DNA from: Bacilli bacterium | GTDB lineage: Bacteria; Bacillota_I; Bacilli_A; RF39; UBA660 | Assembly (NCBI GenBank): GCA_017887425.1 | Contig: JAGHHZ010000006.1 | Coordinates: 1-48,090, forward strand | Direction of reading: 5' to 3' | DNA length: 48,090 bases | Part shown: piece after piece, positions 16,025 through 35,274 of the stretch | Position numbering within the stretch: position 1 is the stretch's first letter | How the letters are laid out: every line of letters starts with the position of its first letter | Translations under genes and position numbers: made by a program | The notes under the pieces: generated by a model | What the model was told of the DNA's origin: nothing | The model's database searches: none | Seen by the model: the letters and a program-made list of their open reading frames with translations, nothing else

Positions 16025-16034
16025 AGGAGACTAT

Positions 16035-17075
16035 ATGACATTAATATATTTTATTTTAATACTTAGTGCAACAATTTTTGTTCACGAATTAGGACATTTT
16101 ATATTTGCTAAAAAAGCAGGTATTTATGTTTATGAATTTTGTATTGGTATGGGGCCAAGAATATTTAAATTTAAAAGAAAAAATGATGAAACAGAATATG
16201 GAATTAGATTATTACCAATCGGTGGCTTTTGTGCAATGGCAGGAGAAGACACGATTGAAGATGATAATGTTCCAAAAGAAAAAAAACTTCAAGCTAAAAC
16301 TTGGGGTCAAAGATTTATGACAATGGTTGCTGGAGTTATGTTTAACTTTATTTTCGCAATAATTTTACTATTTATCATTGGATTAATAAATGGTAATCCT
16401 AACAATCAGCCAATCGTTTCCAGCGTTCCTAATGATGGACCTAGCTATGCGGCAGGACTTAGAAGAGGGGATGAAATAACTAAACTAAACGGCGTTAAAA
16501 TTAATACTATCGATCGTCTTATGATCGAATATCAGATAAATTATGGGAAAACACTTGAATTAGAAGTATTAAGAGATAATGAAACTATTAATATTCAAAT
16601 TACACCTGAAGCTATCGAAACCGAACAAGGGACAGCTTATCAATACAATTTTGCTTTAGATGGAACTATTGAAACAGGATTTTTAGAAGCAATCGAATAT
16701 GCCATTACTAAATTTATGAGTTTAATTGAGCAGATGTTTGTAACTTTCGCTTATTTATTTACCGGTAAACTTAGTTTAACTAATTTATCAGGTCCGATTG
16801 GTATTTATAATATTGTCGATCAATCAGCTACAGCCGGTTTATTAAGTCTTGTTTCTTTAACAAGTTTATTAAGTATCAATGTTGGATTTATTAACTTATT
16901 ACCAATTCCAGCTTTTGATGGTGGAAGAATATTATTCTTGATAATTGAAAAAATAAGAAGAAAACCAGTTAAACCAGAAGTAGAAAATAGAATTCATGCT
17001 ATTGGTTTAGCTTTACTTATGTTACTTATGATTGTTGTAACTTATAATGATATCGTTCGTTTTATCATTAAGTGA
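16035..17075 (+). CDS. rseP: Site-2 protease, RIP metalloprotease RseP/RasP
   Basis: A 346-aa intramembrane zinc protease. The catalytic HELGH lies in the first helix (FVHELGHFIFAKKAG, near residue 17). A PDZ domain follows at about 125-195 (GPSYAAGLRRGDEITKLNG). The third-helix motif NLLPIPAFDGGRI near 285 carries the metal-binding Asp. The family cleaves anti-sigma factors and leftover signal peptides within the membrane. The RsgI-like protein at 893 is a conceivable substrate, by inference only. AAAGGAG precedes the ATG. Confidence 0.95.
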   Translation: MTLIYFILILSATIFVHELGHFIFAKKAGIYVYEFCIGMGPRIFKFKRKNDETEYGIRLLPIGGFCAMAGEDTIEDDNVPKEKKLQAKTWGQRFMTMVAGVMFNFIFAIILLFIIGLINGNPNNQPIVSSVPNDGPSYAAGLRRGDEITKLNGVKINTIDRLMIEYQINYGKTLELEVLRDNETINIQITPEAIETEQGTAYQYNFALDGTIETGFLEAIEYAITKFMSLIEQMFVTFAYLFTGKLSLTNLSGPIGIYNIVDQSATAGLLSLVSLTSLLSINVGFINLLPIPAFDGGRILFLIIEKIRRKPVKPEVENRIHAIGLALLMLLMIVVTYNDIVRFIIK

Positions 17076-17401
17076 TAATTCTTGATTGCTGTAAGTATTA
17101 TGACAAGATTGTTAATTTTTTATACTTAGAAAACGATATTATTTCCAAATTATTAATCCATTATTATCAAGAATATGTTTTTAATACTAAAAGTGAAAAA
17201 AGTAAAATAAAACTAGATGAAATAATGAGCCTATATACGGATAAAGAAGATTTTTATAAATATGTTCAAAATATTTTTGATTTAAAAAAGAGCAATGAAA
17301 TATATGATAATTACGATAAGATTATTAGAAAAATGTTAAAAATATACAAAAACTATGAAAACTATAAATTGACAAAGATAGAAAATTCGAGGTGGTTATA
17401 A
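17072..17401 (+). CDS. Hypothetical protein in the rseP-ABC operon
   Basis: A 109-aa ORF that starts with GTG overlapping the rseP stop as GTGA and ends by overlapping the next ATG as TAATG. There is no clear ribosome binding site, so translation would depend on coupling. The product is Tyr/Lys/Asp-rich and helical with no membrane segment, and matches nothing I know. The tight overlaps at both ends argue for a real gene, but base composition alone cannot prove coding. Confidence 0.55.
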   Translation: MIILDCCKYYDKIVNFLYLENDIISKLLIHYYQEYVFNTKSEKSKIKLDEIMSLYTDKEDFYKYVQNIFDLKKSNEIYDNYDKIIRKMLKIYKNYENYKLTKIENSRWL

Positions 17402-18300
17402 TGTTAAAAGTTAAAAATGTTACTAAATACTATGGTGACTTTAAAGCAGTTGATAATTTGTCATTTGAAGTAAAACCAGGAGAAATTTTCGGACTATTAG
17501 GAGTAAATGGTGCTGGAAAAACAACAACATTCAGAATGATTATGGGACTTCTTGATATGACAGAAGGAAGTATCACTTTAGATGGAAAAAAAATTGATTA
17601 TGATGTAACTGATGAAATCGGTTTTTTAACAGAAGAAAGAAGTTTGTTAACTAAATTAACAGTTAAAGAACAATGCATATATTATGGCATTTTAAAAGGG
17701 ATGAAAGAAGAAGAAATTATCAAAAGAACAAAAGAACTATTAGAAAAGTTTGAAATTCCTGAATATTTTGATAAAAAAATAAAAGAATTGTCTAAAGGTA
17801 ACCAACAAAAAGTCCAATTCATTACAGCAATTATTAATAATCCTAAATTGTTAATATTAGATGAACCGTTTAGTGGTCTAGATCCATTTAATGTTGAGTT
17901 ATTCAAAAAACAAATAGTTGAAATGTCTGAAAAAGGGAGTATGATTATTTTCTCATCTCACCGAATGGAACACGTTGAATTATTTTGTAAAAAATTAGTC
18001 GTTCTTTTAAATGGTAAAGCTGTTCTAGAAGGTGAATTAAAGAAAATAAAGGAACAATATCGCAAGAAAAATATTTTAATTAAAGGTGATATTGATCCTG
18101 ATAAGATTAAAAAAATCAAAGGTGTTATATCAGTTGTTGATAAAGCCGATGAATACGAAGTTAAAATTGAAGACGAAAAAATTGTTGAAGATGTTTTTAA
18201 ATATGTTACTAAATGTGATAATATAACTAAATTTTCTGTTGAAGAGCCAAGTTTAAATGAAATATTTGTAGCAAAAGTAGGTGAGTCATATGAAAAATAA
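17401..18300 (+). CDS. ABC transporter ATP-binding protein (NatA/YhaQ-like)
   Basis: A 299-aa ABC ATPase: Walker A GVNGAGKTTT (near residue 38), signature LSKGNQQKVQF (near 130), Walker B LLILDEPFSGLDP (near 152) and switch His in FSSHRMEHVE. The C-terminal domain of about 80 residues is typical of the NatA/YhaQ group, which powers ABC-2 exporters of sodium or unknown substrates. ATG 17401 follows GAGGTGG. It overlaps the permease gene by 11 bases. Confidence 0.9.
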   Translation: MLKVKNVTKYYGDFKAVDNLSFEVKPGEIFGLLGVNGAGKTTTFRMIMGLLDMTEGSITLDGKKIDYDVTDEIGFLTEERSLLTKLTVKEQCIYYGILKGMKEEEIIKRTKELLEKFEIPEYFDKKIKELSKGNQQKVQFITAIINNPKLLILDEPFSGLDPFNVELFKKQIVEMSEKGSMIIFSSHRMEHVELFCKKLVVLLNGKAVLEGELKKIKEQYRKKNILIKGDIDPDKIKKIKGVISVVDKADEYEVKIEDEKIVEDVFKYVTKCDNITKFSVEEPSLNEIFVAKVGESYEK

Positions 18301-19619: not shown

Positions 19620-19979
19620 ATGTTAAAAGTAGTAGGAACAATGTTTTTTAAAGATGGCAAATTGCTAATTGATAAACCTCGAAAAAGACCGACATTTCAA
19701 ATGATTGGTGGTAGTGTTGAAGAAGGAGAAACTACTTTAGAAGCAGCAATTAGAGAATGTCATGAAGAATTAGGCGATAAAGCAATATTTGATGAAAGCA
19801 AAATAACGCCTGTTATGGATTTTGAAGAAATAGCAACAAGTGATCCGACTAAAAAAATTCATATGCATATTTTCAAATATGATGGCGAGTTAGAAGGTGA
19901 GCTAACAACATCTTCAGAAATTGAAAGCTTTATGTGGTTTGGCCAAAATGACGATGTTAATTTATTGTCTAATACTTAA
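19620..19979 (+). CDS. Nudix hydrolase, apparently shortened by a nonsense mutation
   Basis: A 119-aa protein with a complete Nudix box, GGSVEEGETTLEAAIRECHE followed by ELG (residues about 30-52), which binds the magnesium used to hydrolyse nucleoside diphosphate derivatives. The frame stops at TAA (19977-19979) after DDVNLLSNT. The same frame then continues with KNEILPYCIENKLIYNKTR to a TAA near 20038, which looks like the family's usual C-terminal helix. One base change (TTA to TAA) would explain it. The catalytic region is intact, so activity may survive. It starts one base after the permease stop. Confidence 0.85.
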   Translation: MLKVVGTMFFKDGKLLIDKPRKRPTFQMIGGSVEEGETTLEAAIRECHEELGDKAIFDESKITPVMDFEEIATSDPTKKIHMHIFKYDGELEGELTTSSEIESFMWFGQNDDVNLLSNT

Positions 19980-20425: not shown

Positions 20426-20592
20426 CTTTATCAAACCTCCTCTCTATAAAGACTAGAGGTAGACACTCAACAACTGATATTCCCTATAAAAAGAATAATA
20501 TCAAAATAAAAAAATTATCAATATTAGATAAAATTAAATGATTAATATTTAAAAGAATAATGATTCGTGTTATTATATATGCGGAGGTATGT

Positions 20593-21477
20593 ATGAAAAC
20601 ATATGCAATTATTGAAATAGGTAGTAATAATACGAAAACTCATATTTATGAAAATGAAAAATTAATTTATGAAAATAATACAACAATCGAATTTAAAAAG
20701 AATTATTTAAAAGAAAATAAAATTTATCAGCCTGATTTAGACAAACTTTATGAATTAATTGAAAAAGCTATAGAATATACAACTAATGTCCATATATATG
20801 GTTGTAGTATTTTTAGAAATATAAAATTTGATGAATTACAACAAATCAATGATGAGTTAAATAAAAAATTTAAACTACAAATCGAAGTTGTATCACAAGA
20901 AGATGAAGCGTTATATACTGCTTTAGGTTGTTATAATGATATTGATTATAAAGAAAACATTTGCATCTTTATTGGTGGTGGTGGGTCAATAGAATTAATA
21001 TTTGTCAATAATAAAAAAATATTAGAAACTAAATATTATGATTTTGGTGTGGTTGATATAACTAATAAATTTTCTAGTTTAAAAGATGATATACCAACTT
21101 GTACTTTCGATGAAGTATACAATTATATAGATAAATTAATTGGTAATTTAAATATTAAAGCAGATATTTTAATATTAGCTGGTGGTGATCATCTTTATTG
21201 GTATAATAATGCAAATTATAAATTACTAGAAAATTCAATTTATCAAAATGATAAACAAAAATATATGATTACAACTGAAATGAGTGATGTTTATGACCAC
21301 GATGCCTTATTAACCTCTTTAGATAAAATAAGAGAAAATAGTGATAATCCGTTATGGTTCGATGGTTCAAGAGCAATGAAAGTAATAACTAATTTAATTT
21401 CTCATAAAGTTGATGCGAAATATATAATACCAACTAAAATTAACATGGAAGATGGTTTAAAAGAGAAGTTAAATTAA
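20593..21477 (+). CDS. Ppx/GppA-like phosphatase, C-terminus frameshifted
   Basis: A 294-aa member of the actin-fold Ppx/GppA group, which hydrolyses polyphosphate or pppGpp. Seen: YAIIEIGSNNTKTHIYEN (phosphate 1 loop), QEDEALYTALGCY near residue 105, ICIFIGGGGSIELI (phosphate 2, about 125) and ILILAGGDHLYW (adenosine-like motif, about 200). ATG 20593 follows GCGGAGG. The ORF ends at LKEKLN, and a tandem TTAAA duplication (GTTAAATTAAAT) sits exactly at the stop. Removing one TTAAA joins it to 53 further codons (to 21638). The main domain is complete, so the protein may still function. Confidence 0.75.
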   Translation: MKTYAIIEIGSNNTKTHIYENEKLIYENNTTIEFKKNYLKENKIYQPDLDKLYELIEKAIEYTTNVHIYGCSIFRNIKFDELQQINDELNKKFKLQIEVVSQEDEALYTALGCYNDIDYKENICIFIGGGGSIELIFVNNKKILETKYYDFGVVDITNKFSSLKDDIPTCTFDEVYNYIDKLIGNLNIKADILILAGGDHLYWYNNANYKLLENSIYQNDKQKYMITTEMSDVYDHDALLTSLDKIRENSDNPLWFDGSRAMKVITNLISHKVDAKYIIPTKINMEDGLKEKLN

Positions 21478-21729: not shown

Positions 21730-22053
21730 ATGAATACCCAATTTAAGAAAGGAGTACTAGAACTGATTGTTTTATTAGCTGTCAGTAAGAAAGACATGTA
21801 TGGTTATGAATTAGTTTTAGAAGTATCAAAATTCGTCGATGTTAACGATGGAACAATTTATCCATTACTTAAAAGATTAACTAATGATAAATATTTCGAA
21901 ACATATCTAGTCGATTCGACTGAAGGACCAGCGAGAAAATATTATAAAATAACGGTTCTAGGAAAAGAAAGAGTTAAAGAATTAAAACAAAACTGGACAA
22001 CATTTGTAAGTGGTGTTGATAAATTTATAAAGGAGTGTACGAAAGATGAATAA
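21730..22053 (+). CDS. PadR-family transcriptional regulator
   Basis: A 107-aa winged-helix protein: KKGVLELIVLLAVSKKDMYGYEL, then the winged-helix core DGTIYPLLKRLTNDKYFE and GPARKYYKIT (wing), the hallmark of PadR proteins. They usually repress their own operon and a membrane-stress or transport gene. It overlaps the next gene by eight bases, and the PadR plus HAAS-domain pair is a common Firmicutes module. Ribosome binding site AGAGGTGAT. Confidence 0.93.
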   Translation: MNTQFKKGVLELIVLLAVSKKDMYGYELVLEVSKFVDVNDGTIYPLLKRLTNDKYFETYLVDSTEGPARKYYKITVLGKERVKELKQNWTTFVSGVDKFIKECTKDE

Positions 22054-23543: not shown

Positions 23544-24338
23544 ATGACTGAATATTTAGATTTTGCTAAAGAAATCGCTTTATATGCTGGTAAAGTGATG
23601 ATGGAATATTATAATAAAAAAATCGATTTAAATTACAAGAATGATAAAACTGTCGTAACTCTTGTCGATAAAAAAATAAATAGTTATTTAATCGAAAAAG
23701 TTAAAGAAAAATATCCAACCCATGCTGTTAATGGTGAAGAAGAAAATTACAACCAAGATTCTCCATATGTTTGGGTTTGCGATCCATTAGACGGAACAGG
23801 AATGTACGTAGATCATATTCCAGTATTTGTTTTCTCACTAGCCTTAGTTTATGATGGTGAACCGATTGTTGGTGTAATATATAATGCCAATGAAGATAAG
23901 TTGTATTCAGCAATAAAAGGTCAAGGTGCTTATTGTAATAGTGCTAAAATCCACGTAAACAATAAAAAATTAGGTGATTTAGGCTATAAGACAAACATCG
24001 AGATATTCAATAATGAATTAATAGATGAAATAGAAATATTAAAAGAACTAAAAAAATTATCAAAAATATCTTCAATTGGAAGTGTTGCAAGAAGCTGTAT
24101 GGCTATTGCAACTGGTGATTTCTCATGCGATATCTTTCCTGGAACAATTCATGCTAATTGTGACATAGCAGCTTCTTATCTTATTGTTACTGAAGCCGGT
24201 GGTAAAGTAACAAATATATATGGCGATAATCAACGTTATGATGTAGATATCAAAGGAGCCATCATTACAAATGGTATATCACATAACCAAATATTAGGAA
24301 TAATAAGTAAATATATAAAAAAAGGAGAAATAAAATGA
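23544..24338 (+). CDS. Inositol monophosphatase-family phosphatase (CysQ-like)
   Basis: A 264-aa magnesium/lithium-sensitive phosphatase-fold protein. Metal site residues are in GEEE (near 71), WVCDPLDGTGMYV (near 80-92) and HANCDIAASYLIVTEAGGKV (near 208-226). The family includes inositol-1-phosphatases and 3'(2'),5'-bisphosphate nucleotidases; the substrate cannot be decided. It overlaps the next gene as ATGA, so the two are co-translated. Confidence 0.88.
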   Translation: MTEYLDFAKEIALYAGKVMMEYYNKKIDLNYKNDKTVVTLVDKKINSYLIEKVKEKYPTHAVNGEEENYNQDSPYVWVCDPLDGTGMYVDHIPVFVFSLALVYDGEPIVGVIYNANEDKLYSAIKGQGAYCNSAKIHVNNKKLGDLGYKTNIEIFNNELIDEIEILKELKKLSKISSIGSVARSCMAIATGDFSCDIFPGTIHANCDIAASYLIVTEAGGKVTNIYGDNQRYDVDIKGAIITNGISHNQILGIISKYIKKGEIK

Positions 24339-24814
24339 ATACATTACTTTTAGTAATCGACATGCAAAAAGCTTTTATAAATCCAAATACCGAATATTTA
24401 ATCGAAAAAATAAGCAATCTTATAAATGCCAATAAATATAATTATATTGTTTTCACAAGATTTATAAATACTAATGATAGTATTTATGTGAGTGACCTAA
24501 ATTATTACGGTTGTATAGGTGAAGATAAAGAATTGGTTATTAAACCTGATAATCATAAAGTAATTGATAAAAAGGTATATTCTTCATTAAATTCAGAATT
24601 AAAAAATTATATCATCGAAAATAATATCGCCAAAATATATTTATGTGGGATAAATACTGATTGTTGTGTTTTAAAAACTGCTTTTGATTTGTTTGAAAAT
24701 GAATATGACTTTTACATATTAAAAGATTATTGCGCATCAACTAACGGAATAGAAAAACATAACAATGCTTTAGAAATATTAAAAAGGAATATTGGAAATA
24801 AAAGAATCATATAA
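24335..24814 (+). CDS. Isochorismatase-family cysteine hydrolase
   Basis: A 159-aa protein of the nicotinamidase/isochorismatase superfamily. The triad is visible: Asp in LLVIDMQKAF (D9), Lys in KKVYSS (about 79) and Cys in CGINTDCCVLKTA (about 108). The cis-peptide region sits just before GINTDCC. It may be nicotinamidase-like (amide hydrolysis), but no metal-binding histidines are evident. Co-translated with the upstream phosphatase. Confidence 0.88.
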   Translation: MNTLLLVIDMQKAFINPNTEYLIEKISNLINANKYNYIVFTRFINTNDSIYVSDLNYYGCIGEDKELVIKPDNHKVIDKKVYSSLNSELKNYIIENNIAKIYLCGINTDCCVLKTAFDLFENEYDFYILKDYCASTNGIEKHNNALEILKRNIGNKRII

Positions 24815-24830
24815 AAATTTAATATAAAGA

Positions 24831-24857
24831 TAAACAAATACTTTGTTTACTTTTTTT
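24831..24857 (+). terminator. Terminator of the phosphatase-isochorismatase operon
   Basis: TAAACAAA (24831-24838) / TTTGTTTA (24842-24849) then CTTTTTTT. Confidence 0.75.
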
Positions 24858-24878
24858 CGCTAGGAAAGAAAGTAAGCA

Positions 24879-24907
24879 TTGCTTTTTAATGTGAAAAATG
24901 TTAGAAT
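24879..24907 (+). promoter_or_regulatory. Promoter of the MacB-like gene
   Basis: TTGCTT (24879-24884), 17-nt spacer, TAGAAT (24902-24907), 34 nt before the ATG. Confidence 0.55.
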
Positions 24908-24941
24908 GGCTAGTGTATTAAAAATAAAAGGAGCTGAATAA

Positions 24942-27491
24942 ATGCTAGAATTAAAAAAGATTACTAAAATATATGAAACAAACAGTTTCAAGCAACAAGC
25001 TTTAGATGAAGTTAGTATTAATTTCCGCAAAAATGAATTTGTCTCTATTTTGGGACCATCAGGAAGCGGGAAAACAACTTTATTAAACATAATTGGTGGA
25101 TTAGATGATTATACTAATGGCGATTTAATAATCAATGGAATAAGTACTAAAAAATATACTAATCGTAACTGGGATACATATCGTAATCATCGCATTGGTT
25201 TTGTTTTTCAAAATTACAACTTAATTCCTCATCAAACAATTTTATCAAATGTCGAATTAGCGTTAACTTTATCAGGTGTTTCTAAAAATGAAAGTCGAAA
25301 AAGAGCTAAAGAAGCATTAAATAAAGTAGGCTTAAGCGATCACATAAATAAAAAACCTAATCAATTATCTGGTGGTCAAATGCAAAGAGTTGCGATAGCT
25401 AGAGCTTTAGTTAATAATCCAGATATTTTATTAGCCGATGAACCAACTGGAGCTTTAGATTCAAAAACAAGCGAACAAATAATGGATTTATTAAAAGAAG
25501 TCGCTAAAGATCGTCTAGTTATCATGGTTACGCATAATGCTGAATTAGCTAATCAGTACTCAACTAGAATTATTGAACTAAAAGATGGAAAAGTTACAAG
25601 TGATAGTGATCCTTACACTAAAGTTGATAAAGAAAAAGAAGATGATAAAAAGAAAAAAACTAGTATGTCGTTCTTGACAGCTTTATCTTTAAGTTTAAAT
25701 AATTTAATGACTAAAAAAGGAAGAACAATTTTAACTGCTTTTGCTGGTTCAATAGGTATTATTGGTATTGCTTTAATCTTATCTTTGTCAAGTGGTGTTC
25801 AAAATTATATCAATCGTGTTCAAGAAGAAGCTTTAACCTCTTATCCATTAATGATTGAATCTAATTCAATTGACATAACATCATTTTTAGAAGAACAAAG
25901 AAATAATTTTATTAATGCCGAGGAAAATCAAGACGATAATAAAGTATATTCTAATGATATTATTATTGATACCTTATCTGTTATGAGTAATCAAATAAAT
26001 AATAACAACTTAGAGGCTTTTAAGAACTATTTAGAAAACGAGGGTAGTCATATTAACGACTATACAACAGCCATTAGTTATCAATACAATTTAAATTTAC
26101 AACTTTATAAACCAGATACAGAAAATGGTATAGTTCAAGTTAATCCTAATACAATTTTAGAAAGCATTGGCTATTTTGATGAAACAGCTGCATCGATTAT
26201 GATGAGCGATGTATTTAGTGAATTATTAGAAAATGATGAAATGAATAAACAAATGTATCAAGTAGTAAGTGGAAGAATGCCTGAAAATTATAACGAAGTA
26301 GTTATAATGGTCGATGAAAATAACCAAATTAGTGATTATGCACTATATGCTTTAGGTTTAAAAGATCAAGCTGAATTAAGTGAATTTTTTGAGAAACTAG
26401 CTAATGGTGAGGAAATCGTTACTGAACAAGTTAGCTTTGAGTATGATGAGTTGCTTAATTTAACTTTCAAACTATTACTAAATACGGATTATTATGAAAA
26501 AGTAAATGGTATTTGGGTCGATAAAAGTAATGACGAAGAATATATGAAACAAAAAATTGAAGAAGCCGAAGAAATAAAAGTAGTTGGAATTATAAAACCT
26601 AATGAAAATGCTGTTGTTACTAATAGTTCAGTTGGTGGAGTTTTATATACTAATGATTTAGAAGAATACGTTATTAATAAAATAAATGAAGCAGAAATCG
26701 TCAAAGAACAAAAAGAAAATCCAGATGTAAATGTTATTACCGGCTTAGAATTTAGTGATGAAGAATTTAATATTAATAATTTAAGTCCTGAACAACAACA
26801 ATATTTAGCTTCACTACCACCTGAGCAATTAGCTGAAATAATTGAAATGTATCGCGATCAAGCTAATGCAACATATGAAAGTACTTTATTAAAATTAGGC
26901 TCTGTTAATCTTGATAAACCTTCAGCTATCTATATATATGCTAAAGACTTTAAAGCTAAAGATGAGATAAAAAACATTATTGCTGAATATAATCAAATAC
27001 AAGAAAATAGTGGAAACGAAGATAATGTTATTAACTATAGTGATTTAGTTGGCATGTTAATGAGTTCAGTTACTGATATCGTTGATATTGTTAGTTATGT
27101 ATTAATCGGTTTTGTTTCAATTTCTTTAGTAGTTTCGAGTATTATGATTGGGATAATAACTTATATTTCTGTTTTAGAAAGAACCAAAGAAATCGGTATT
27201 TTAAGAGCAATTGGTGCATCTAAAAAAGATATTTCAAGAGTATTTAATGCTGAAACTTTAATTGTTGGATTAATTGCTGGATTATTTGGAATAGGAATAA
27301 CATTATTAATAAATATTCCAATTAACTTAATTATTTATAATTTAGCAGGAATAAATAACTTAAGCGCTTTACCACTAGTTGGTGGAATAATATTAGTCGC
27401 AATTAGTGTAATCTTAACTGTCGTTGCTGGATTGATACCAGCTAAAATGGCTAGCCATAAAGATCCAGTCGAAGCATTGAGAACAGAATAA
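24942..27491 (+). CDS. MacB-like ABC transporter, fused ATPase and FtsX permease
   Basis: An 849-aa fusion. The ATPase domain (1-225) has GPSGSGKTT, QNYNLIPHQT, LSGGQMQRVAIARAL and LLADEPTGALD, typical of the LolD/MacB group. One helix lies at about 260-282, then an outside domain of about 420 residues, then three helices (about 700-840) with the FtsX motif RTKEIGILRAIGASKKDI. Such proteins do not pump across the membrane in the usual way; they drive outside work such as peptide or lipoprotein handling, or antibiotic-peptide resistance. It has its own promoter and terminator, with no sensor kinase nearby. Confidence 0.9.
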   Translation: MLELKKITKIYETNSFKQQALDEVSINFRKNEFVSILGPSGSGKTTLLNIIGGLDDYTNGDLIINGISTKKYTNRNWDTYRNHRIGFVFQNYNLIPHQTILSNVELALTLSGVSKNESRKRAKEALNKVGLSDHINKKPNQLSGGQMQRVAIARALVNNPDILLADEPTGALDSKTSEQIMDLLKEVAKDRLVIMVTHNAELANQYSTRIIELKDGKVTSDSDPYTKVDKEKEDDKKKKTSMSFLTALSLSLNNLMTKKGRTILTAFAGSIGIIGIALILSLSSGVQNYINRVQEEALTSYPLMIESNSIDITSFLEEQRNNFINAEENQDDNKVYSNDIIIDTLSVMSNQINNNNLEAFKNYLENEGSHINDYTTAISYQYNLNLQLYKPDTENGIVQVNPNTILESIGYFDETAASIMMSDVFSELLENDEMNKQMYQVVSGRMPENYNEVVIMVDENNQISDYALYALGLKDQAELSEFFEKLANGEEIVTEQVSFEYDELLNLTFKLLLNTDYYEKVNGIWVDKSNDEEYMKQKIEEAEEIKVVGIIKPNENAVVTNSSVGGVLYTNDLEEYVINKINEAEIVKEQKENPDVNVITGLEFSDEEFNINNLSPEQQQYLASLPPEQLAEIIEMYRDQANATYESTLLKLGSVNLDKPSAIYIYAKDFKAKDEIKNIIAEYNQIQENSGNEDNVINYSDLVGMLMSSVTDIVDIVSYVLIGFVSISLVVSSIMIGIITYISVLERTKEIGILRAIGASKKDISRVFNAETLIVGLIAGLFGIGITLLINIPINLIIYNLAGINNLSALPLVGGIILVAISVILTVVAGLIPAKMASHKDPVEALRTE

Positions 27492-27515
27492 CATTGAAAA
27501 GATGTTATTTTTTTT
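27488..27515 (+). terminator. Terminator after the MacB-like gene
   Basis: ATAACAT (27488-27494) / ATGTTAT (27502-27508) with seven-base loop, followed by seven or more T. Confidence 0.8.
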
Positions 27516-27548
27516 AAAAAAGATTTAAATATTAAAAACTTTAGAACT

Positions 27549-27591
27549 CTACGATTCGTAGGGTGACTTTCTATAACCTCTATAGTATTAT
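27549..27591 (+). promoter_or_regulatory. Promoter with two palindromic operator candidates
   Basis: GTGACT (27563-27568), 17-nt spacer, TATTAT (27586-27591). CTACGATTCGTAG (27549-27561), a perfect 13-bp palindrome, abuts the -35 box. CTATAACCTCTATAG (27571-27585) fills the spacer as another inverted repeat. The operon encodes an XRE-type DNA-binding protein, the likely ligand. Confidence 0.6.
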
Positions 27592-27609
27592 TGTGTTAAG
27601 GAGGAAGTT

Positions 27610-28269
27610 ATGAAAAAAGATTTAATTAATAATTATACTATATTTATGATAATTATATTTATCATAGAAAACATAATACTAATTAATTTAAAAATTAAAG
27701 GAATAGTTTATGAAATATTTATGTTAATTTTAGTTATTTTTAATATGATTATACTTATAAAGTATAATAGTGAAATAAAATTTAAAATTTTAACTATTAT
27801 CGTTTCGTTGTTTCTTTTTTTACTATCTAAAGATTTTTATAATGCTATTTTTATGATTACTAATATATTAACTCTACTTATTATAACGATATTTAACGCG
27901 ATAAAAAAACAATCACTAAAGACAATAATTTTATCTATTTTAGCTGTTATTTTTCTTTTTAAATATTTCTTTTATATTATTTTATTTATAATGTTTGTTT
28001 TATATAATAAACTTACATATGAAGAAGATAGTGATATATATTATGATACATATTATTATTGTGAAAATAACTATGAGGCTTACGTATATTCTGCTGGTGC
28101 CTTTGATAGCTTTCATTATAGTGTTGGTAAACACTATGAAATTTTCAACATAGATGGTATAATAAACGTAAGTTATCGCGAAAGAAATGAAACTACAAAA
28201 GAAAACTATGAAGAATTTATAAGAAACAATAAATGTACTTTAGTAGGTGATATTGATGGATTTAAATAA
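27610..28269 (+). CDS. Hypothetical membrane protein
   Basis: A 219-aa protein with about five hydrophobic helices in residues 10-140, then a Tyr-rich, acidic outside domain (SDIYYDTYYYCENNYEAYVYS, split here by the eye only) to the end. The helical part is built almost entirely of Ile, Leu, Phe and Lys. I recognise no family. It starts 19 nt after the operator promoter with AAGGAGG and overlaps the XRE-VanZ gene, so the three genes 27610-29870 form one operon. The third gene has the same plan (helices, then a small outside domain), which suggests a functional pair. Confidence 0.78.
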   Translation: MKKDLINNYTIFMIIIFIIENIILINLKIKGIVYEIFMLILVIFNMIILIKYNSEIKFKILTIIVSLFLFLLSKDFYNAIFMITNILTLLIITIFNAIKKQSLKTIILSILAVIFLFKYFFYIILFIMFVLYNKLTYEEDSDIYYDTYYYCENNYEAYVYSAGAFDSFHYSVGKHYEIFNIDGIINVSYRERNETTKENYEEFIRNNKCTLVGDIDGFK

Positions 28270-29164
28270 AATATCAAATTTCATTAAAACAAAAAGAAAA
28301 GAGTTAAATCTTACTCAAGAAGAATTGGCGGAAAAACTTTTTGTTACTGAGAAAGCTGTTTCGAGATGGGAGACGGGCAGAGGAACTCCTGATATTTCTT
28401 TATTAATTCCGTTATCGAAAGCATTAAAAGTAGAAATACCAGAAATATTAAATGGCGAAGAAAATAAAAAGAATAAAAATGATATTGAAAAACTAATCGA
28501 GTATAATGAACTTACTAAAAAATCCAAATTTAATTTTAAAATTAAATTAATTATATTGTTATATGTTTTATCAATTCTATTCTTTTTAAGTTACTTAAGA
28601 GTCGAATATAATCCCAATATTGAATTAAATTATTTTATAAGATTATTTTTAGTAGTTATATCGTCGATCTTAATAGTTATCGGAAATAGAATATATGCTA
28701 ACAACTATGTTGAAAAAATCGAGGATAAAATGAAAGTAGATAAATTATCTAAAACTATTGTTTTTATATACTATATAATTTTATTATTCAACATGGTAAT
28801 ATTTGCCCGATACAGTAATATCACTAGCTACAATATAATACCGTTTGCGTCAATTACTAACTTAATTACAAATGGAAATTTATATACAATAGTTATTAAT
28901 TTGTTCGGAAATTTATTAATATTTATGCCATTAGAATATTTTATTATTGAATTATTCAAGGTAAACAAATTTAAACAAAATCTACTTTTGTCTTTTATAA
29001 TTATATTAATGATTGAGACCTCACAATTTATATTAAAAATTGGCGTTTTTGATGTTGATGATATAATTATATGTACATTTGGAATGATGACATTTTATGT
29101 AATTTGTAATTCAATAAAAAATATAAGGAGAAAATATGAAGGAAAAAATAACGCAAATTATTGA
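28256..29164 (+). CDS. XRE-family regulator fused to a VanZ-like membrane domain
   Basis: A 302-aa fusion. Residues 1-65 are an XRE helix-turn-helix (RKELNLTQEELAEKLFVTEK, then VSRWETGRGTPDISLLIPLS). After a short linker come about six helices. The last 120 residues match the VanZ-like fold: NIIPFASI, NLFGNLLIFMPLEYF, IIILMIETSQFILKIG and FDVDDIIICTFG. Start ATG 28256 follows GTAGGTG; an in-frame GTG nine bases earlier belongs to that site. A membrane-tethered DNA-binding protein suggests direct coupling of an envelope signal to transcription, perhaps through the palindromes at 27549-27585. Confidence 0.85.
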   Translation: MDLNKISNFIKTKRKELNLTQEELAEKLFVTEKAVSRWETGRGTPDISLLIPLSKALKVEIPEILNGEENKKNKNDIEKLIEYNELTKKSKFNFKIKLIILLYVLSILFFLSYLRVEYNPNIELNYFIRLFLVVISSILIVIGNRIYANNYVEKIEDKMKVDKLSKTIVFIYYIILLFNMVIFARYSNITSYNIIPFASITNLITNGNLYTIVINLFGNLLIFMPLEYFIIELFKVNKFKQNLLLSFIIILMIETSQFILKIGVFDVDDIIICTFGMMTFYVICNSIKNIRRKYEGKNNANY

Positions 29165-29870
29165 AAAAAGTAAATTATCATTCATAATGTGTATTATTAC
29201 ATTAATATTAAGTTATATTTTTATTGATTCAAGCTTAATTTTTGATGGAAAAGAAAAAATAACAGTTTTACTAATTGGCTTTGTTCCTGTTGTTGTATTT
29301 TTAATCATTACCTTAGCAATTAACTACTTTTATAAGAAGAATATTGTTCAAAAAGCATTAAAAATACTTAATATACTTTTAATAATAATTCTGCCTATGT
29401 ATTATTTAATAGGATTTTTAACTTGTACCGCTATTAAAATTTCTAACCCTATTGTAAACATTAAAAATTATAAGTATCTAGTTAATGGCGAACTTTTAAA
29501 CATTTTTCCTTCAAGTATTCCTGAAAATGTAATTGATACTAGACTTACATATTCACCTGCATTACTACAAGCTGGAGACCAAATTACGCTTTATTATATA
29601 GATAATAATTTAAACCTCGAAGAATTTGATAACAAATATAAAGAAAAAGCAATATGGATAGGTAATGTAGATGATTATGAGGAAAACAAAGGCTTATTGA
29701 CTGGAATTTTTTCCGATACTTCGGTTACTTATGAAACAGAAAATGATTTTATTATATATTTAATTGAAGGAAAATGTGATGATTCGGGATATTGTAATCA
29801 TGGTAAGTTTACATTAGCAGCCGTAAATCCAAAGACAAACGAAGTAATATATGAATACAAATATTGGTAA
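29136..29870 (+). CDS. Hypothetical membrane protein
   Basis: A 244-aa protein with three helices in residues 12-108, followed by an outside domain of about 135 residues rich in acidic and aromatic residues. A pair CDDSGYC near residue 215 might form a disulfide. There is no family I recognise. ATG 29136 has AAGGAG upstream and overlaps the XRE-VanZ gene by 29 bases. It resembles the protein of 27610-28269 in general plan only. Confidence 0.78.
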   Translation: MKEKITQIIEKSKLSFIMCIITLILSYIFIDSSLIFDGKEKITVLLIGFVPVVVFLIITLAINYFYKKNIVQKALKILNILLIIILPMYYLIGFLTCTAIKISNPIVNIKNYKYLVNGELLNIFPSSIPENVIDTRLTYSPALLQAGDQITLYYIDNNLNLEEFDNKYKEKAIWIGNVDDYEENKGLLTGIFSDTSVTYETENDFIIYLIEGKCDDSGYCNHGKFTLAAVNPKTNEVIYEYKYW

Positions 29871-29898
29871 AATGATAAATAAGTCAGGGGGAATATAA

Positions 29899-31272
29899 AT
29901 GATCAAAAATGTAATATCAGTAATCGATGGTGAAGCTGGAAGCTGTGGTAAAGCTAAAGTAGTTGGAGAAATAGCTACAGATAAATCCATAAAACTAGGG
30001 GCAGCTGTTACAAATTGTATGCCTAATGCTGGACATACATTTGTCGACAAAAACGGTAATAAAACTGTATTTAGAAATATACCTGTTTCATCAGTAAATC
30101 CTAATACAGAATTGTTTATTGGTCCAGGTTCAGCTATCGATATGGATACATTTATAGAAGAATATGCAAACGCTAGTAAATATTTAAAGAATAGAAAAAT
30201 TTATGTTCATGAAATGGTACCGTTAATTGAAAAAAGACATAAAGACCATGAACGAGAAAACATCAAAAGTGGTTCAACATTCAAAGGATGTGGAGCTGTT
30301 ACTCAAGAAAAAGTTATTAGAGATAAAAAATTGAAGTTTTTTAAAGATTTTAAAAATGCTATCGTTTGTTCTAATTATGAATGGTTAGAAAGATTATATA
30401 AACATCTTGACAATCCTGAAGAATATGTAATTTTAGAAGGTGCTCAAGGTTGTGATTTGGATTTAAACCATAGTGGTAATTATCCTTATGTTACAAGTAG
30501 AAATGTCTCGACTACTCAATTATTAGCTGATAGTGGAATATCTGCTGATAGACTATTACAAACTATTATGGTAATAAGACCATTTCCGATTAGAATAAGT
30601 AATGTAACAAAATCAGGTGAGGTTATATATACTGGTGGCTATGGTAATGGTGAAGAATTAACATGGACACAAATTAATCTTGCTTCTATGTATGGAGGAT
30701 ATCCGCATAAGGGAGATGTTGAATGTTATCGTAGTTTTCTTGATTTTAAAAGAATAAAAAAACTAGTTAGTCATTGCCCAGAAATATATTTGAAACAAAT
30801 ATTTGGCGAAAATTATAAATCAAAAAAACTCGATACCATAACTTTATTAGAAGCTCTTGAATTAGAACGATTAATGTACAAATCTAAAGGACAAAATATT
30901 TATGAGACAAAATTAATAGAAATTCCTATGATTGATAGTGAATTAGAGCCAAATACGATAATCGATCAATCTGAACAAACGACAGTTACTAAAATGGAAA
31001 GAAGAGTTTTTGATCTAGATATTAATAAACTTAAAACTAATTGCCAAATAAACACACCTTCAAGTCTATATTTAAATTTTTTTCAACATTTAAACTTTGA
31101 TTATGAAGGGGAAAAAGGTAACTTTGATGACTATTATTTTAATAGATATTTAAGAGAATATTTTAGTTGGCTAGAAAGTAATACAGATGTCGAAATTTCT
31201 GCACTGGGAACTGGTGCTAAAAACGGCGAAAGAATTTTAAAGAAAAATTTAGTTTTACCTATAAAAAGATAA
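29899..31272 (+). CDS. Divergent adenylosuccinate synthetase, PurZ-like
   Basis: A 457-aa member of the adenylosuccinate synthetase family. The first loop reads GSCGKAK (residues 14-20), where PurA has GDEGKGK; the catalytic Asp is thus Ser15. NAGHT with the catalytic His46 is kept. GSTFKGCGAVTQEK (124-138) replaces the PurA GTTGRGIGP loop. EGAQGCDLDLNHSGNYPYVT (180-199) is conserved. EQTTVTKMERRVFDL occurs near 340. Asp-to-Ser at this loop is the known hallmark of phage PurZ, which uses dGMP to make a precursor of 2-aminoadenine. Substrate here is inference; a true PurA is presumably elsewhere. It is preceded by CAGGGGGAAT. Confidence 0.82.
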   Translation: MIKNVISVIDGEAGSCGKAKVVGEIATDKSIKLGAAVTNCMPNAGHTFVDKNGNKTVFRNIPVSSVNPNTELFIGPGSAIDMDTFIEEYANASKYLKNRKIYVHEMVPLIEKRHKDHERENIKSGSTFKGCGAVTQEKVIRDKKLKFFKDFKNAIVCSNYEWLERLYKHLDNPEEYVILEGAQGCDLDLNHSGNYPYVTSRNVSTTQLLADSGISADRLLQTIMVIRPFPIRISNVTKSGEVIYTGGYGNGEELTWTQINLASMYGGYPHKGDVECYRSFLDFKRIKKLVSHCPEIYLKQIFGENYKSKKLDTITLLEALELERLMYKSKGQNIYETKLIEIPMIDSELEPNTIIDQSEQTTVTKMERRVFDLDINKLKTNCQINTPSSLYLNFFQHLNFDYEGEKGNFDDYYFNRYLREYFSWLESNTDVEISALGTGAKNGERILKKNLVLPIKR

Positions 31273-31416: not shown

Positions 31417-32169
31417 ATGAATGGTTATTCTAATGAGCTAAATTTTGTCAATTATCTAAATGGACATAAAGTCAAAAAATTAAATATCATGTTATTAGAG
31501 TTGATAGAATCATTATTTGATAATGTTAATGAAGATGATGTTATTACAGCTTGGAAAAATCCTTTTAAGCAAAAAACTGATATTTTTATTAAAATTAACA
31601 ATATTAAAAAAAGAATAAGTATTAAAATGGGTAGTAAAAATTCAGTCCATATGGAACCAATATCTGAGTTTATACATTTTCTAATTGAAAATGGTATTTC
31701 TCGTGAAGATGTAATTGAATACTTAAAATATCAATATGCTGACGGAACGACTAATGGAACCGGCAAAATTAGATTATCCAGCGAAGAATATAAAAAAGAT
31801 AATCAATTAAAGTTAGATAAATTAAATATGGTTTTAAATCAAGAGCGTATTTTAAAAAAAGCAATTGACAAATTTGTCTTAAAAGGAAATAATGATATAA
31901 ATTATATTGATGCTTTAATCTACGGAACTGTTGAAGACTTTGTATTTGTTAAAAAAGATGAAATAAAAGAAATAATTATAAATAAAAAAGATTTATATGC
32001 TACTGGTATTCATTTTGGACCATTGTTTTGTCAACCAATGAGTAGATGTTTGAATTATAATAAAAAATACGAAAAATTAAGATTTTGTGTGCAGATAAAA
32101 TGGTATAGTTTGTTAGACGATATATTGGAATATAAAAATGATCAATTGTATAAAAATAATTGTCATTGA
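31417..32169 (+). CDS. Hypothetical protein with nuclease-like core
   Basis: A 250-aa soluble protein. Residues 45-75 contain KQKTDIFIKINNIKKRISIK: an acidic residue (D55), a strand turn, and SIK (68-70). That D-x12-SxK pattern fits the catalytic core of PD-(D/E)xK nucleases, a family too loose for certainty. SEFIHFLIENGISREDVIEY follows. The C-terminal half has YIDALIYGTVEDFVFV and a short Cys-containing stretch, GPLFCQPMSRC. It is preceded by AGGAGGTG and a sigma-H-type promoter. It lies between the PurZ-like gene and tRNA-Gly in an accessory-looking region. A role in sporulation, competence or defence would be guesswork. Confidence 0.7.
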   Translation: MNGYSNELNFVNYLNGHKVKKLNIMLLELIESLFDNVNEDDVITAWKNPFKQKTDIFIKINNIKKRISIKMGSKNSVHMEPISEFIHFLIENGISREDVIEYLKYQYADGTTNGTGKIRLSSEEYKKDNQLKLDKLNMVLNQERILKKAIDKFVLKGNNDINYIDALIYGTVEDFVFVKKDEIKEIIINKKDLYATGIHFGPLFCQPMSRCLNYNKKYEKLRFCVQIKWYSLLDDILEYKNDQLYKNNCH

Positions 32170-32199: not shown

Positions 32200-32219
32200 C
32201 TTCCAAGCTGATAACGTGG
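32200..32219 (+). repeat. Inverted copy of the tRNA-Gly anticodon region
   Basis: CTTCCAAGCTGATAACGTGG (32200-32219) is identical to the anticodon loop, 3' anticodon stem and variable region of the minus-strand tRNA-Gly (32308-32289). The two are inverted relative to each other and enclose the tRNA 3' half and terminator. The identity stops abruptly at both ends. Confidence 0.85.
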
Positions 32220-32220
32220 C

Positions 32221-32252
32221 ATAAAAAAAGTCTTGTGCAAAGACAAGACTTT
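32221..32252 (-). terminator. Terminator of tRNA-Gly
   Basis: Ten-bp stem AAAGTCTTGT (32227-32236) / ACAAGACTTT (32243-32252). On the minus strand it is followed by TTTTATG, giving a run of seven T overall. Confidence 0.8.
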
Positions 32253-32264
32253 AAATTAGTAAAA

Positions 32265-32338
32265 TGGAGCAGGTGATGGGAATCGGACCCACGTTATCAG
32301 CTTGGAAGGCTGAAGTTCTACCATTGAACTACACCTGC
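32265..32338 (-). tRNA. tRNA-Gly (anticodon UCC)
   Basis: A 74-nt tRNA on the minus strand with CCA encoded (32267-32265). The acceptor GCAGGTG pairs with CACCTGC. The anticodon stem TCAGC/GCTGA carries loop CTTCCAA, giving anticodon UCC, which reads GGA and GGG. Discriminator base U and a regular T arm (GGGTCCGATTCCC) are seen. Confidence 0.96.
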
Positions 32339-32524: not shown

Positions 32525-32785
32525 ATGGAAACATTAAAAGTAAGTTCAAAATCAAATCCTAATTCAGTAGCAGGAGCACTTGCTAATGTATTTAGAGAAA
32601 AAGGAAGTTTAGAAATTCAGGCAATAGGAGCGGGGGCATTAAATCAAGCAATAAAGGCAATCGCTATTGCCCGTGGTTTTGTCGCTCCTTCAGGGAAAAA
32701 CTTAATTTGTATCCCTGCGTTTACTGACATAGTAATAGACGGAGAAGAAAGAACAGCAATTAAATTAATAGTAGAGGCAAAATAG
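32525..32785 (+). CDS. spoVS: Stage V sporulation protein S
   Basis: The 86-aa product matches SpoVS along its length: METLKVSSKSNPNSVAGALA, then QAIGAGALNQAIKAIAIARG and CIPAFTDIVIDGEERTAIKL. SpoVS is a small Alba-like protein that in B. subtilis affects completion of coat and cortex and also septation. It has a GAAAGGAATA ribosome binding site. The next gene follows 34 nt later without a terminator, so spoVS and the cysteine synthase-like gene may share a transcript. Confidence 0.97.
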   Translation: METLKVSSKSNPNSVAGALANVFREKGSLEIQAIGAGALNQAIKAIAIARGFVAPSGKNLICIPAFTDIVIDGEERTAIKLIVEAK

Positions 32786-32819
32786 CCTCTTTTTCATATA
32801 CTAATTTTAGGTGAAAAAT

Positions 32820-33764
32820 ATGAATGAATTGATTGGAAACACTCCGATAATAAAAATAAACTATAAATATCAAAATGAAATCAAAAGTGTATATGCAAAA
32901 CTAGAATATTACAATTTGACTGGTAGCATCAAAGATCGAATGGCATATTACATTATAGATAAAGCATATAAAAATGGTGACTTAAAAAAGGGACAACCAA
33001 TAATAGAAGCTACAAGTGGTAATACGGGAATTTCTTTATCTGCCATAGGAGCACTTTACAATAATCCTGTATATATATTCATGCCAGATTGGGTAAGCAA
33101 AGAAAGAATAAAGATAATGGAATTATATGGTGCTAAAGTAACTTTAGTTTCCAAAAAAGAAGGCGGGTTTTTAGAGTGTATTAATCGAGCCAATACATTA
33201 GCTAAATCAATAAATGGATTCACATCCAATCAATTTGAAAATAAAGATAATATTACTGCGCATTATGAAACAACTGCTAAAGAAATAATTGATAAATTTC
33301 CTCAAATTGATAGTTTTATAAGTGGAGTAGGAACTGGTGGTACCATAATGGGCGTAGCTAAAAGACTAAAAGAGAAAAACGAAAAAATAAAAATATTAGC
33401 TTTAGAACCAAGTAGTTTACCTATTATTAGTAAAGGGGTAAAAACGGGAAATCATAAAATTGAAGGAATAGGTGATGAATTCATGCCAAAAATACTCGAT
33501 ACAAATTTGATTGATGATGTAATTTTAGTTGAGGATATCGATGCCATAAATATGGCAAAGAAATTAGCTTCAAAATTGGGATTAGGAGTTGGTATATCAA
33601 GCGGTGCTAACTTTTTGGGTGCGATTATGGCAAATCAAAATAATATAGCTACAATTTTCTCCGATGATTTAAAAAAATATCTGACAACAGATTTAACCGA
33701 AAAAATTACTTCAAAAAACTTGATTTCCAATCAAATAGAACTAATCGATTATGAAATTTTATAA
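32820..33764 (+). CDS. Cysteine synthase-family PLP enzyme
   Basis: A 314-aa fold-type II PLP enzyme. The PLP lysine is in LTGSIKDRMA (near residue 38), the substrate loop TSGNTG near 65, the phosphate loop GVGTGGT near 170 and the C-terminal SSGAN near 260. This fits O-acetylserine sulfhydrylase/CysK, but cystathionine beta-synthase-type enzymes are close. The start ATG 32820 follows TTAGGTG; an upstream in-frame GTG is part of that site. SufU follows, hinting at sulfur supply to Fe-S clusters. Confidence 0.87.
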   Translation: MNELIGNTPIIKINYKYQNEIKSVYAKLEYYNLTGSIKDRMAYYIIDKAYKNGDLKKGQPIIEATSGNTGISLSAIGALYNNPVYIFMPDWVSKERIKIMELYGAKVTLVSKKEGGFLECINRANTLAKSINGFTSNQFENKDNITAHYETTAKEIIDKFPQIDSFISGVGTGGTIMGVAKRLKEKNEKIKILALEPSSLPIISKGVKTGNHKIEGIGDEFMPKILDTNLIDDVILVEDIDAINMAKKLASKLGLGVGISSGANFLGAIMANQNNIATIFSDDLKKYLTTDLTEKITSKNLISNQIELIDYEIL

Positions 33765-33836
33765 AGCTATAATCTCAAGATAATTGACTATATAAAGTGC
33801 AAGTATTATAATGTTATATGAGAAAAGGTGAAAAAT

Positions 33837-34280
33837 ATGGATAATAATCTAAAAAGAAATATAATATTAGAAAATTACAAAAATCCTAAAAATAAAGGAT
33901 TAATTGATGATAGTAGCTATATTTTTTCTAATACTAATAACGAAAGTTGCATCGATGAAGTTAATTTGATGGCTAAAATAATAGACAATAAAATAAATGA
34001 TATAAGATTCGATGGTGAATCATGTGCAATATGTACAAGTAGTGCATCAATCATGACAAATCTTTTGAAAGAAAAAACAATTACAGAAGCCGAACAAATC
34101 TACTGTAACTTTGAAAACATGTTAGAAGGAAAACAATATGACAGTGATATTCTAAAAGAAGCTAATGTATATGATGACATTGCCAAACAACCAAGTAGAA
34201 AAAAATGTGCTTTGTTGCCTTGGATAGGAATGGAAAAAATAATCAAAAGTCATAAACAAACTATTGAAGAAAACAAATAA
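33837..34280 (+). CDS. sufU: SufU-like Fe-S cluster assembly protein
   Basis: A 147-aa SufU/IscU-type protein. Three zinc- or cluster-binding cysteines appear in order: NESCIDEVNL with the conserved Asp (near residue 40), GESCAICTSSASIMT (near 62) and KKCALLPW (near 124). The GDR-type first motif is changed (CIDEV where Bacillus has CGDRI). In Bacilli, SufU receives sulfur from SufS as a zinc-bound persulfide carrier. sufB, C, D and S are not in the window. Start ATG 33837 follows AAAAGGTG. Confidence 0.85.
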   Translation: MDNNLKRNIILENYKNPKNKGLIDDSSYIFSNTNNESCIDEVNLMAKIIDNKINDIRFDGESCAICTSSASIMTNLLKEKTITEAEQIYCNFENMLEGKQYDSDILKEANVYDDIAKQPSRKKCALLPWIGMEKIIKSHKQTIEENK

Positions 34281-34370
34281 AAAAGCATTTTTTTAAAAAA
34301 TATGACAAATTTTATTTTTTGTTTTAAAAATATGTGATATAATATAATTGTTATAGTAAAAGGAGGATTT

Positions 34371-34682
34371 ATGAAAAAAGTATTAGTTTTGACAATTTTA
34401 GCTTGTTCATTAATTTTAGTTGGCTGTGACAACCAAAGTGAATATGAGGAGATAATGAGAGATTATGCTACTACATTCTACAATAACTATCAAAAAGGTA
34501 GTGAAGGATTAACAACTCCTACTATCTCTATTCAACAATTAAAAGATGCTAATGAACAAGTACAAGCAGGCTTTGATTTAACAGGTTTAGAAAAATGTAC
34601 TGACGATTCATATGTTGAACTTGTTATCGATGAAAATACAAAAGATGTTCAAGATGTAAAATTTTTCTTACAATGCGAATAA
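34371..34682 (+). CDS. Small lipoprotein
   Basis: A 103-aa secreted lipoprotein. The signal peptide ends in lipobox LILVGC (Cys19). The mature part has a helical section (EYEEIMRDYATTFYNNY) and a short C-terminal strand pair with two cysteines (EKCTDDS and FLQCE), which may form a disulfide. No family is recognised. AAAGGAGG precedes the ATG; TATAAT at 34338-34343 is a likely -10 box. Confidence 0.8.
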   Translation: MKKVLVLTILACSLILVGCDNQSEYEEIMRDYATTFYNNYQKGSEGLTTPTISIQQLKDANEQVQAGFDLTGLEKCTDDSYVELVIDENTKDVQDVKFFLQCE

Positions 34683-34694
34683 AATATTAAACTA

Positions 34695-34750
34695 AAAAAC
34701 TATGTTTGGAGTAATTTTTAAAATTATTTAACCAAACATAGTTTTTTTTA
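34695..34750 (+). terminator. Long terminator hairpin
   Basis: AAAAAACTATGTTTGG (34695-34710) pairs with CCAAACATAGTTTTTT (34733-34748), and the inner AGTAATTTT / AAAATTATT pairs as well. The result is a hairpin of about 25 bp ending in T8. The stretch 34750-34880 holds nothing else I can recognise. Confidence 0.85.
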
Positions 34751-34885
34751 TAATTTTTTTAAAAATTTATTAATTTTGAAAATTGAATGCTATTTTTAAT
34801 CAGTAGTTATCAAAAAAACGAATTTCCTTTAGAACAAAATACATTATTAACGTAGCAAAGAAAACAAATATAAAAAAATAGTCAT

Positions 34886-34918
34886 TTGCATCACTTTTTT
34901 TAAAATGCTATAGTGATG
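34886..34918 (+). promoter_or_regulatory. Promoter of ssb with inverted repeat
   Basis: TTGCAT (34886-34891), 17-nt spacer, TATAGT (34909-34914). CATCACT (34889-34895) and AGTGATG (34912-34918) form an inverted repeat that overlaps both boxes, an operator-like layout. Confidence 0.6.
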
Positions 34919-34935
34919 GCGAAAGGAGGAAATTC

Positions 34936-35274
34936 ATGCTTAACCAGTCTATATTAGTAGGAAGAATCGTTCAAGAGCCAGAAGTAAGAGAGACTGAAAA
35001 CGGCAATAAAGTAACTAATATTACTTTAGCCGTTCAAAGATCATATAAAAACATTGAAGGCGAATATGATACAGACTTTATCTCATGTGTTTTGTGGAAG
35101 GGAATTGCTGAGTCAACAGCTGAATACTGCAAAAAAGGTGATTTAATCGGAATCCGCGGCCGAATCCAAACAAGAGTAGTAGAATATCCGGATGATACAA
35201 AACGAAATGTTATGGAAGTAGTAGCCGAAAGAGTAACGTTTCTATCAAGCAAAAAACAAGAATGCGATGCTTAA
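34936..35274 (+). CDS. Short single-stranded DNA-binding protein (SsbB-like)
   Basis: A 112-aa protein consisting of one OB-fold: LNQSILVGRIVQEPEVRETE, then ITLAVQRSY, DTDFISCVLWKGIAE, CKKGDLIGIRGRI and VEVVAERVTFL-type end. It lacks the Gly/Gln-rich linker and acidic tip of replicative SSB (about 160-170 aa). That short form resembles the competence SSB of Bacillus (SsbB). The ORF ends in convergent overlap with an XRE regulator gene. Confidence 0.88.
   Translation: MLNQSILVGRIVQEPEVRETENGNKVTNITLAVQRSYKNIEGEYDTDFISCVLWKGIAESTAEYCKKGDLIGIRGRIQTRVVEYPDDTKRNVMEVVAERVTFLSSKKQECDA

Follow-up and report, generated by a model that had tools for sequence, protein, structure and literature searches.

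Phage PurZ, the deoxyguanylosuccinate synthase of phages phiVC8, S-2L and SH-Ab 15497, carries Ser where the adenylosuccinate synthetase PurA has Asp13, together with an NAGHT motif, a TTVTK loop and an ATP-type LNFx(N/Q) nucleotide site. It is coupled to the (d)GTP hydrolase MazZ (PMC8342488), and the two genes often adjoin, as we also saw in the sequences examined here; the lyase of Z-phages comes from the host (PMC8342488, PMC12884076). Reports of the enzyme concern phages and, apart from these, just four archaeal sequences (PMC12884076). Phage PurZ0 (Wayne, Ghobes, Milani) likewise has Ser for Asp as well as the aspartate loop.

In the present study, we analysed a 48,090-nucleotide stretch of DNA from a gut Bacilli bacterium (the window), in which a long-type PurZ-like gene was found on the forward strand (Table 1). 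The encoded protein shares with phage PurZ all the motifs named above and the fold (6tnh, 6fm1, 7odx), and its bacterial relatives adjoin phosphohydrolase genes much as phage PurZ adjoins that of its (d)GTP hydrolase. Unlike phage PurZ, however, the bacterial branch is chromosomal, forms its own clade, reads GSCGK instead of GSTGK, has an insert in its long type, resides in hosts without PurB, and is accompanied by Ppx/GppA-like or NUDIX/MTH1-like partners in place of MazZ. PurZ0 differs from the window protein in its PurA-type Asp in the nucleotide site (T-x-x-D), its GSEAKG motif and its separate clade (100/100). Our search of the open-access literature, with subscription papers outside its reach, found no report of a chromosomal bacterial PurZ clade or of its Ppx/GppA or MTH1 partners, and what we describe is a known kind of enzyme, possibly put to a new use.

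Table 1. Features of the window in and around the PurZ-like gene.
Feature	Coordinates	Strand	Basis or remark
NUDIX (MutT-type) protein, related to the Clostridia PurZ-adjoining NUDIX genes	19620..19979	+	Link to window PurZ-like gene unproven
Ppx/GppA-like protein, 28% relative of the partner found elsewhere	20560..21477	+	PF02541 7.5e-12; link to window PurZ-like gene unproven
AGGGGG ribosome-binding site, 7 nt 5' of PurZ-like ATG	29886..29891	+	From sequence
PurZ-like (succino-aminodeoxyadenylate synthetase-like) CDS, long type	29899..31272	+	Intact ORF, 457 aa, ATG start
P-loop GSCGKAK (residues 14-20), Ser15 for PurA Asp13	29938..29958	+	Alignment
NAGHT motif (residues 43-47), catalytic His46 kept	30025..30039	+	Alignment
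Helical insert, about 94 residues (262-355), long type only	30682..30963	+	Alignment; predicted helices H283-292, H295-302, H316-329 (AlphaFold2 model)
TTVTK aspartate-binding loop (residues 361-365), as in phage PurZ	30979..30993	+	Alignment; loop role per PMC8342488
N393-F394-x-Q396, ATP-type nucleotide site	31075..31086	+	Alignment; S-2L residues N305/F306/Q308 per PMC8342488
13-bp perfect hairpin 3' of PurZ-like stop codon	31286..31320	+	Fold -15.5 kcal/mol; likely the PurZ-like transcript end
Type II restriction-endonuclease-like (REase) protein	31417..32169	+	PADLOC REase_II 2e-16; neighbour, judged outside the module

Placement between PurA and PurZ

The protein matches PF00709 at 94.2 bits (Pfam cut-off 27), its top NCBIfam model is PurZ NF038379 (184.9 bits, under that model's 300-bit cut-off), its top PHROG match is 1211, annotated as "2-aminooxy adenylosuccinate synthetase", and its top PDB sequence match is S-2L PurZ (7odx). 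The top structural matches of its AlphaFold2 model (pLDDT 90) are PurZ 6tnh/6fm1 and archaeal PurA 5k7x, with phiVC8 PurZ (Foldseek 4e-24, Z 37.9) and archaeal PurA (Z 38.7) tied by Z. PurA shares with the window protein both the fold and most catalytic residues; the two enzymes are not separable by fold alone, and it is residues and phylogeny that separate them. The hairpin behind the gene is without a strong T-run and was hence missed by the terminator scanner.

When the S-2L PurZ residues named in PMC8342488 were mapped onto an alignment with the window protein, the residues of the dGMP pocket and the catalytic site were found to be kept (G14, S15, N43, A44, H46, G125, S126, T127, R141, Q183, T199 and R232), as were the aspartate loop and the three ATP-site residues, of which Gln396 occupies a position held by Asp in PurA and PurZ0. 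Val241 of S-2L PurZ, which clashes with the ribose 2'-OH (PMC8342488), corresponds to Ile233. In a maximum-likelihood tree of 56 rows, the PurA rows (E. coli, archaeal, Clostridioides and PurA of the same bacterial family) split from all PurZ-type rows at 100/99, and the bacterial chromosomal PurZ-like proteins, 34 of 34, formed one clade (100/96) beside phage PurZ; the clade around the window gene held bacterial chromosomal members only. A sequence-only reading had called the gene PurZ-like and not PurA, from GSCGKAK in place of GDEGKGK and the retained His of NAGHT; both motifs were confirmed in the exact ORF, and the tree and the pocket residues agree with its verdict. On this alignment and tree, the window gene is on the side of PurZ and not of PurA, and its predicted chemistry, well supported by the residues kept, is that of an ATP-dependent ligase of aspartate and dGMP.

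Ser15 is found in nearly all relatives examined, and we therefore judge from the alignment that it is neither chance nor a sequencing oddity. The one exception (L055:7485-8594) has Asp restored at this position (GDCGKGK), but reads NADHS for NAGHT and has lost the TTVTK loop; it is a decaying or re-purposed copy. A separate PurA-type protein that keeps the Asp (G190:C7:12783-14150) sits on a very long branch (2.9) of the tree.

Could the gene nevertheless be an ordinary or degenerate PurA, converting IMP to adenylosuccinate? It is the single PF00709 gene found in the window assembly (draft MAG, 1.24 Mb, 87.6% complete), which speaks for such a role. What PurA needs is missing, however, since the catalytic Asp13 is Ser15, the GTP-recognising Asp (K/T-x-x-D) is Gln396 in a site of ATP type, the protein falls outside the PurA clade, and there is no PurB to use the product; we regard this explanation as extremely unlikely. 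The sequence-only reading had expected that being the sole purA of the genome would count against it. The gene literally is that, yet the reading is not overturned, purB being absent as well: with purB gone too, and full-length ordinary purA absent in 182 of the 193 genomes of the family, the window gene does not fill the place of PurA, and we rejected the replacement of a lost PurA on the same ground, the missing purB. Nor did mutual exclusion between PurZ-like and PurA genes give a signal, the observed overlap of zero genomes being set against only 1.1 expected (p 0.61).

The missing lyase and the hydrolase partners

PurB (TIGR00928) was detected neither in the window genome nor in any other carrier within the family, and no Lyase_1 protein of any kind was found in 19 carriers, the window genome included; the Lyase_1 search was positive in its controls, namely three family members that have purA and purB, and each of the 14 reference genomes. 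Likewise, 26 of 30 further genomes with related loci gave no PurB. Across the family purB is below its cut-off or absent in 190 of 193 genomes, and the absence of the lyase is a background trait of the family, not specific to carriers. Five genomes (G006, G007, G012, G080 and G086) have a full-length ordinary purA, with no purB or Lyase_1 detected.

Because the carriers are without PurB or Lyase_1, no route is known that would take the PurZ product further, which argues against a Z-DNA pathway as well as against a PurA role; N6-succino-2-amino-dAMP probably cannot become dZMP in these hosts. The phage-type building of 2-aminoadenine, brought up by the sequence-only reading, thus does not hold as a completed pathway. 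It might still be supposed that the module makes 2-aminoadenine (Z) nucleotides for the DNA of the bacteria or their elements, with an unrecognised lyase finishing the step from dSMP to dZMP. The predicted PurZ chemistry and a phosphohydrolase partner do resemble the logic of the phages, for which a host-supplied lyase is the norm (PMC8342488, PMC12884076), but against this stand the 19 carriers with no PurB or Lyase_1 member, and no datZ- or dpoZ-like gene stood out among the recurrent neighbours, the neighbourhoods being what was surveyed. We consider this very unlikely.

The relatives point to a second component. Counting only loci with enough sequence (56 Bacilli loci, 30 of them with the partner), a 298-aa Ppx/GppA-like gene ends 14-24 nt upstream of the PurZ-like start in 27 of 51 long-type loci and, among related short-type loci, in 3 of 5. 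For the short loci of the Clostridia type it is a NUDIX gene that takes this place, directly upstream in 13 and fused at the N-terminus in 5 of the 19 loci with data (18/19 in total); the fused domain is MTH1-like (2.5e-32) and keeps the NUDIX box and the PDD motif. These in-frame NUDIX-PurZ fusions (L124, L128, L136, L138 and L139) carry a domain close to human MTH1 in sequence. Twelve genomes hold both the PurZ-like gene and the Ppx-like partner, where 2.1 would be expected (p 3e-9, the genomes not being independent), and in four of the 12 the two lie on different contigs. Solo copies of the Ppx-like partner showed no consistent alternative partner gene. Since different hydrolases stand beside the same ligase, the arrangement argues that the shared step is the supply of a guanine monophosphate.

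The Ppx-like partner is strongly conserved (mean column identity 79%, with one 28% outlier among the aligned sequences), and its model (L067:5083-5979, pLDDT 81) resembles Ppx/GppA 1t6c (Z 18.3, rmsd 5.0 over 266 residues), followed by NTPDases (Z 12.9). It retains the two Glu that align with the catalytic pair of Ppx/GppA (E107, E135). In contrast to Ppx/GppA, the partner is a short single-unit form with conserved NMGGKTTEL and FTGGEERFELL, and its metal-site Asp is replaced by Asn128 in all 298-aa copies aligned, because of which its activity may differ from that of Ppx/GppA.

A partner of MTH1 type also brings to mind the sanitation of nucleotide pools, in which the hydrolase would act on damaged guanine nucleotides (e.g., 8-oxo-dGTP) and the PurZ-like enzyme would tag the monophosphate against re-use. 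The intact NUDIX box and PDD motif of the fused domain fit this thought, as do an 8-oxoguanine-glycosylase (OGG-type)-like neighbour at locus L053 and, at L119, L120 and L121, what we take from their sequences to be a UVDE-like protein, encoded upstream of the Ppx-PurZ pair, and a rubrerythrin-like one, encoded downstream of it. Nevertheless, few loci have neighbours of this repair kind, a housekeeping function would not be expected to be lost so patchily, and Ppx/GppA proteins are, to our knowledge, not known for acting on oxidised nucleotides, so that we hold sanitation to be improbable.

The window copy itself is without an adjacent partner, and its genome has only the 28% Ppx-like relative. 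This gene and the NUDIX gene of the window may be the missing partners, but both are too diverged for the claim to be made; the window copy may rely on a distant relative, work by itself, or be in the course of being lost.

Patchy distribution and genomic surroundings

The gene or its remnants were found in 20 of the 193 genomes of the family, some copies having decayed; within the genus, 1 of 18 genomes has an intact copy and one other a 44-residue remnant. A scan with one genome per species gave 99 relatives, and 80 were retained. Nearly all come from gut-type MAGs that bear the names Bacilli, Tenericutes or Clostridia, and they fall into two forms, a long type of about 457 aa with the helical insert and short types of 358-391 aa. 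Decay takes several shapes: a frame-broken copy (G161), a 121-residue stub adjoining an intact partner (G150), partner and PurZ ends fused in frame (G187), and short remnants (G071, G098 and G026). Between intact relatives dN/dS is 0.10-0.24, which is purifying selection. The closest copies elsewhere in the genome collection share 79-81% identity with the window gene, in comparison with only 63-72% for cysK within the genus; this suggests, and does not prove, horizontal spread of the PurZ-like gene. Family, motifs, clade, partner linkage, missing lyase and patchiness are established by these observations.

It had been proposed from the sequence alone that the gene is chromosomal and accessory, with no phage structural genes nearby, and this is borne out. 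Its further suggestion of capture from a known phage found no support, in view of the separate bacterial clade and of an IMG/VR search that returned only two distant relatives (28%); the closest named phage match, Bacillus phage vB_BpsS-140, is at 33%. In view of these distant matches we set aside a prophage or phage origin. On Agrobacterium and Sinorhizobium plasmids we observed adenylosuccinate-synthetase-like genes with GSEGKG (L159:2455-4068 and L160:2986-5048); in one case the gene is fused with an AAA_18 domain and has DUF7002 behind it, and in the other it overlaps a gene resembling dCTP deaminase.

The nuclease-like neighbour, which the sequence-only reading had noted beside the gene, proved to be a resident gene and not a partner. 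Its orthologues, 65-70% identical, occupy the same place beside tRNA-Gly in five genus-mates without PurZ, where the block of REase, tRNA-Gly, the gene at 32525 and cysK is kept, and homologues occur in 39 of the 193 family genomes, mostly without PurZ; the REase was accordingly rejected as a PurZ partner. It has no PDB sequence relative. One other adjacent pair, with the REase after PurZ, was seen in G042 (L048), whose PurZ-like protein is the nearest tree row to the window gene (92/52), and a shared history of the two loci is possible. In another genome (G235) the flanking genes at 15206-18281, 21730-22046, 31417 and 32525-34936 are present in order, and the NUDIX (19620), Ppx-like (20560), 23544-29870 and PurZ genes were not found at the locus; the window gene sits in a variable stretch. 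Beside the REase gene we also observed a 20-nt inverted piece of tRNA-Gly(TCC), from anticodon to variable arm (32200-32219 and 32289-32308); the copy lies just 5' of a hairpin terminator (32227-32252), in the REase gene's 3' region. The matching inverted copy in five genus-mates, often without AA, largely tracks the tRNA sequence of its own species, and on these alignments it looks like concerted change.

A gene that is accessory, patchy and partly decayed, in a two-enzyme cassette conserved through changing neighbourhoods, would suit anti-phage defence proper, with infection triggering depletion of dGTP through the partner and trapping by the PurZ-like enzyme; expression of the S-2L Z-cluster is, in addition, toxic to E. 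coli (PMC8342488). On the other hand, PADLOC gave no catalogued defence match for the PurZ-like protein, no clustering of defence genes with the module was seen in its varying neighbourhoods, and no trigger component is known. We therefore think defence in this strict sense unlikely, if a good deal less so than the making of Z-DNA. A link to (p)ppGpp through RelA/SpoT was uninformative, these being present in 33 of 33 genomes tested.

Proposed function

The substrate, the product, the activity of the partner and the biological role are what we infer. The PurZ-type enzyme, using ATP, would attach aspartate at the C6 position of a guanine monophosphate, of which dGMP is the likeliest, and so give N6-succino-2-amino-dAMP (dSMP). 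In the relatives, a Ppx/GppA-like (Bacilli) or NUDIX (Clostridia) hydrolase would provide the monophosphate in the manner of MazZ in the phages, and because the hosts are without adenylosuccinate lyase the route would stop at the succinylated nucleotide. The module would in this way act as a drain on guanine (deoxy)nucleotides, its end product being one that the host has no means of converting to dZMP, with a role in accessory pool control or defence, or in the making of a dedicated nucleotide. That hydrolase and PurZ-like ligase form a module taking (d)GTP to a succinylated end product, in one of these roles, we consider an evenly balanced proposition. Among the options raised by the sequence-only reading, an enzyme altering a guanine nucleotide pool is the one that the evidence favours. 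More tentatively, we propose a lyase-less chromosomal PurZ module of gut Bacilli and Clostridia in which a dedicated hydrolase (Ppx/GppA-like, or a fused MTH1-like domain) would feed a dGMP:aspartate ligase, the succinylated product being the end point and serving either to trap guanine nucleotides or as a new nucleotide.

The fused MTH1-like and PurZ-like protein offers a single polypeptide for the direct testing of substrate and product, and a chromosomal PurZ clade raises the question of which came first. More broadly, a chromosomal bacterial clade with partners of its own, in hosts unable to finish the 2-aminoadenine route, separates PurZ chemistry from Z-DNA; if the proposal is true, the lyase-less module would put PurZ chemistry to a use that has nothing to do with Z-DNA.
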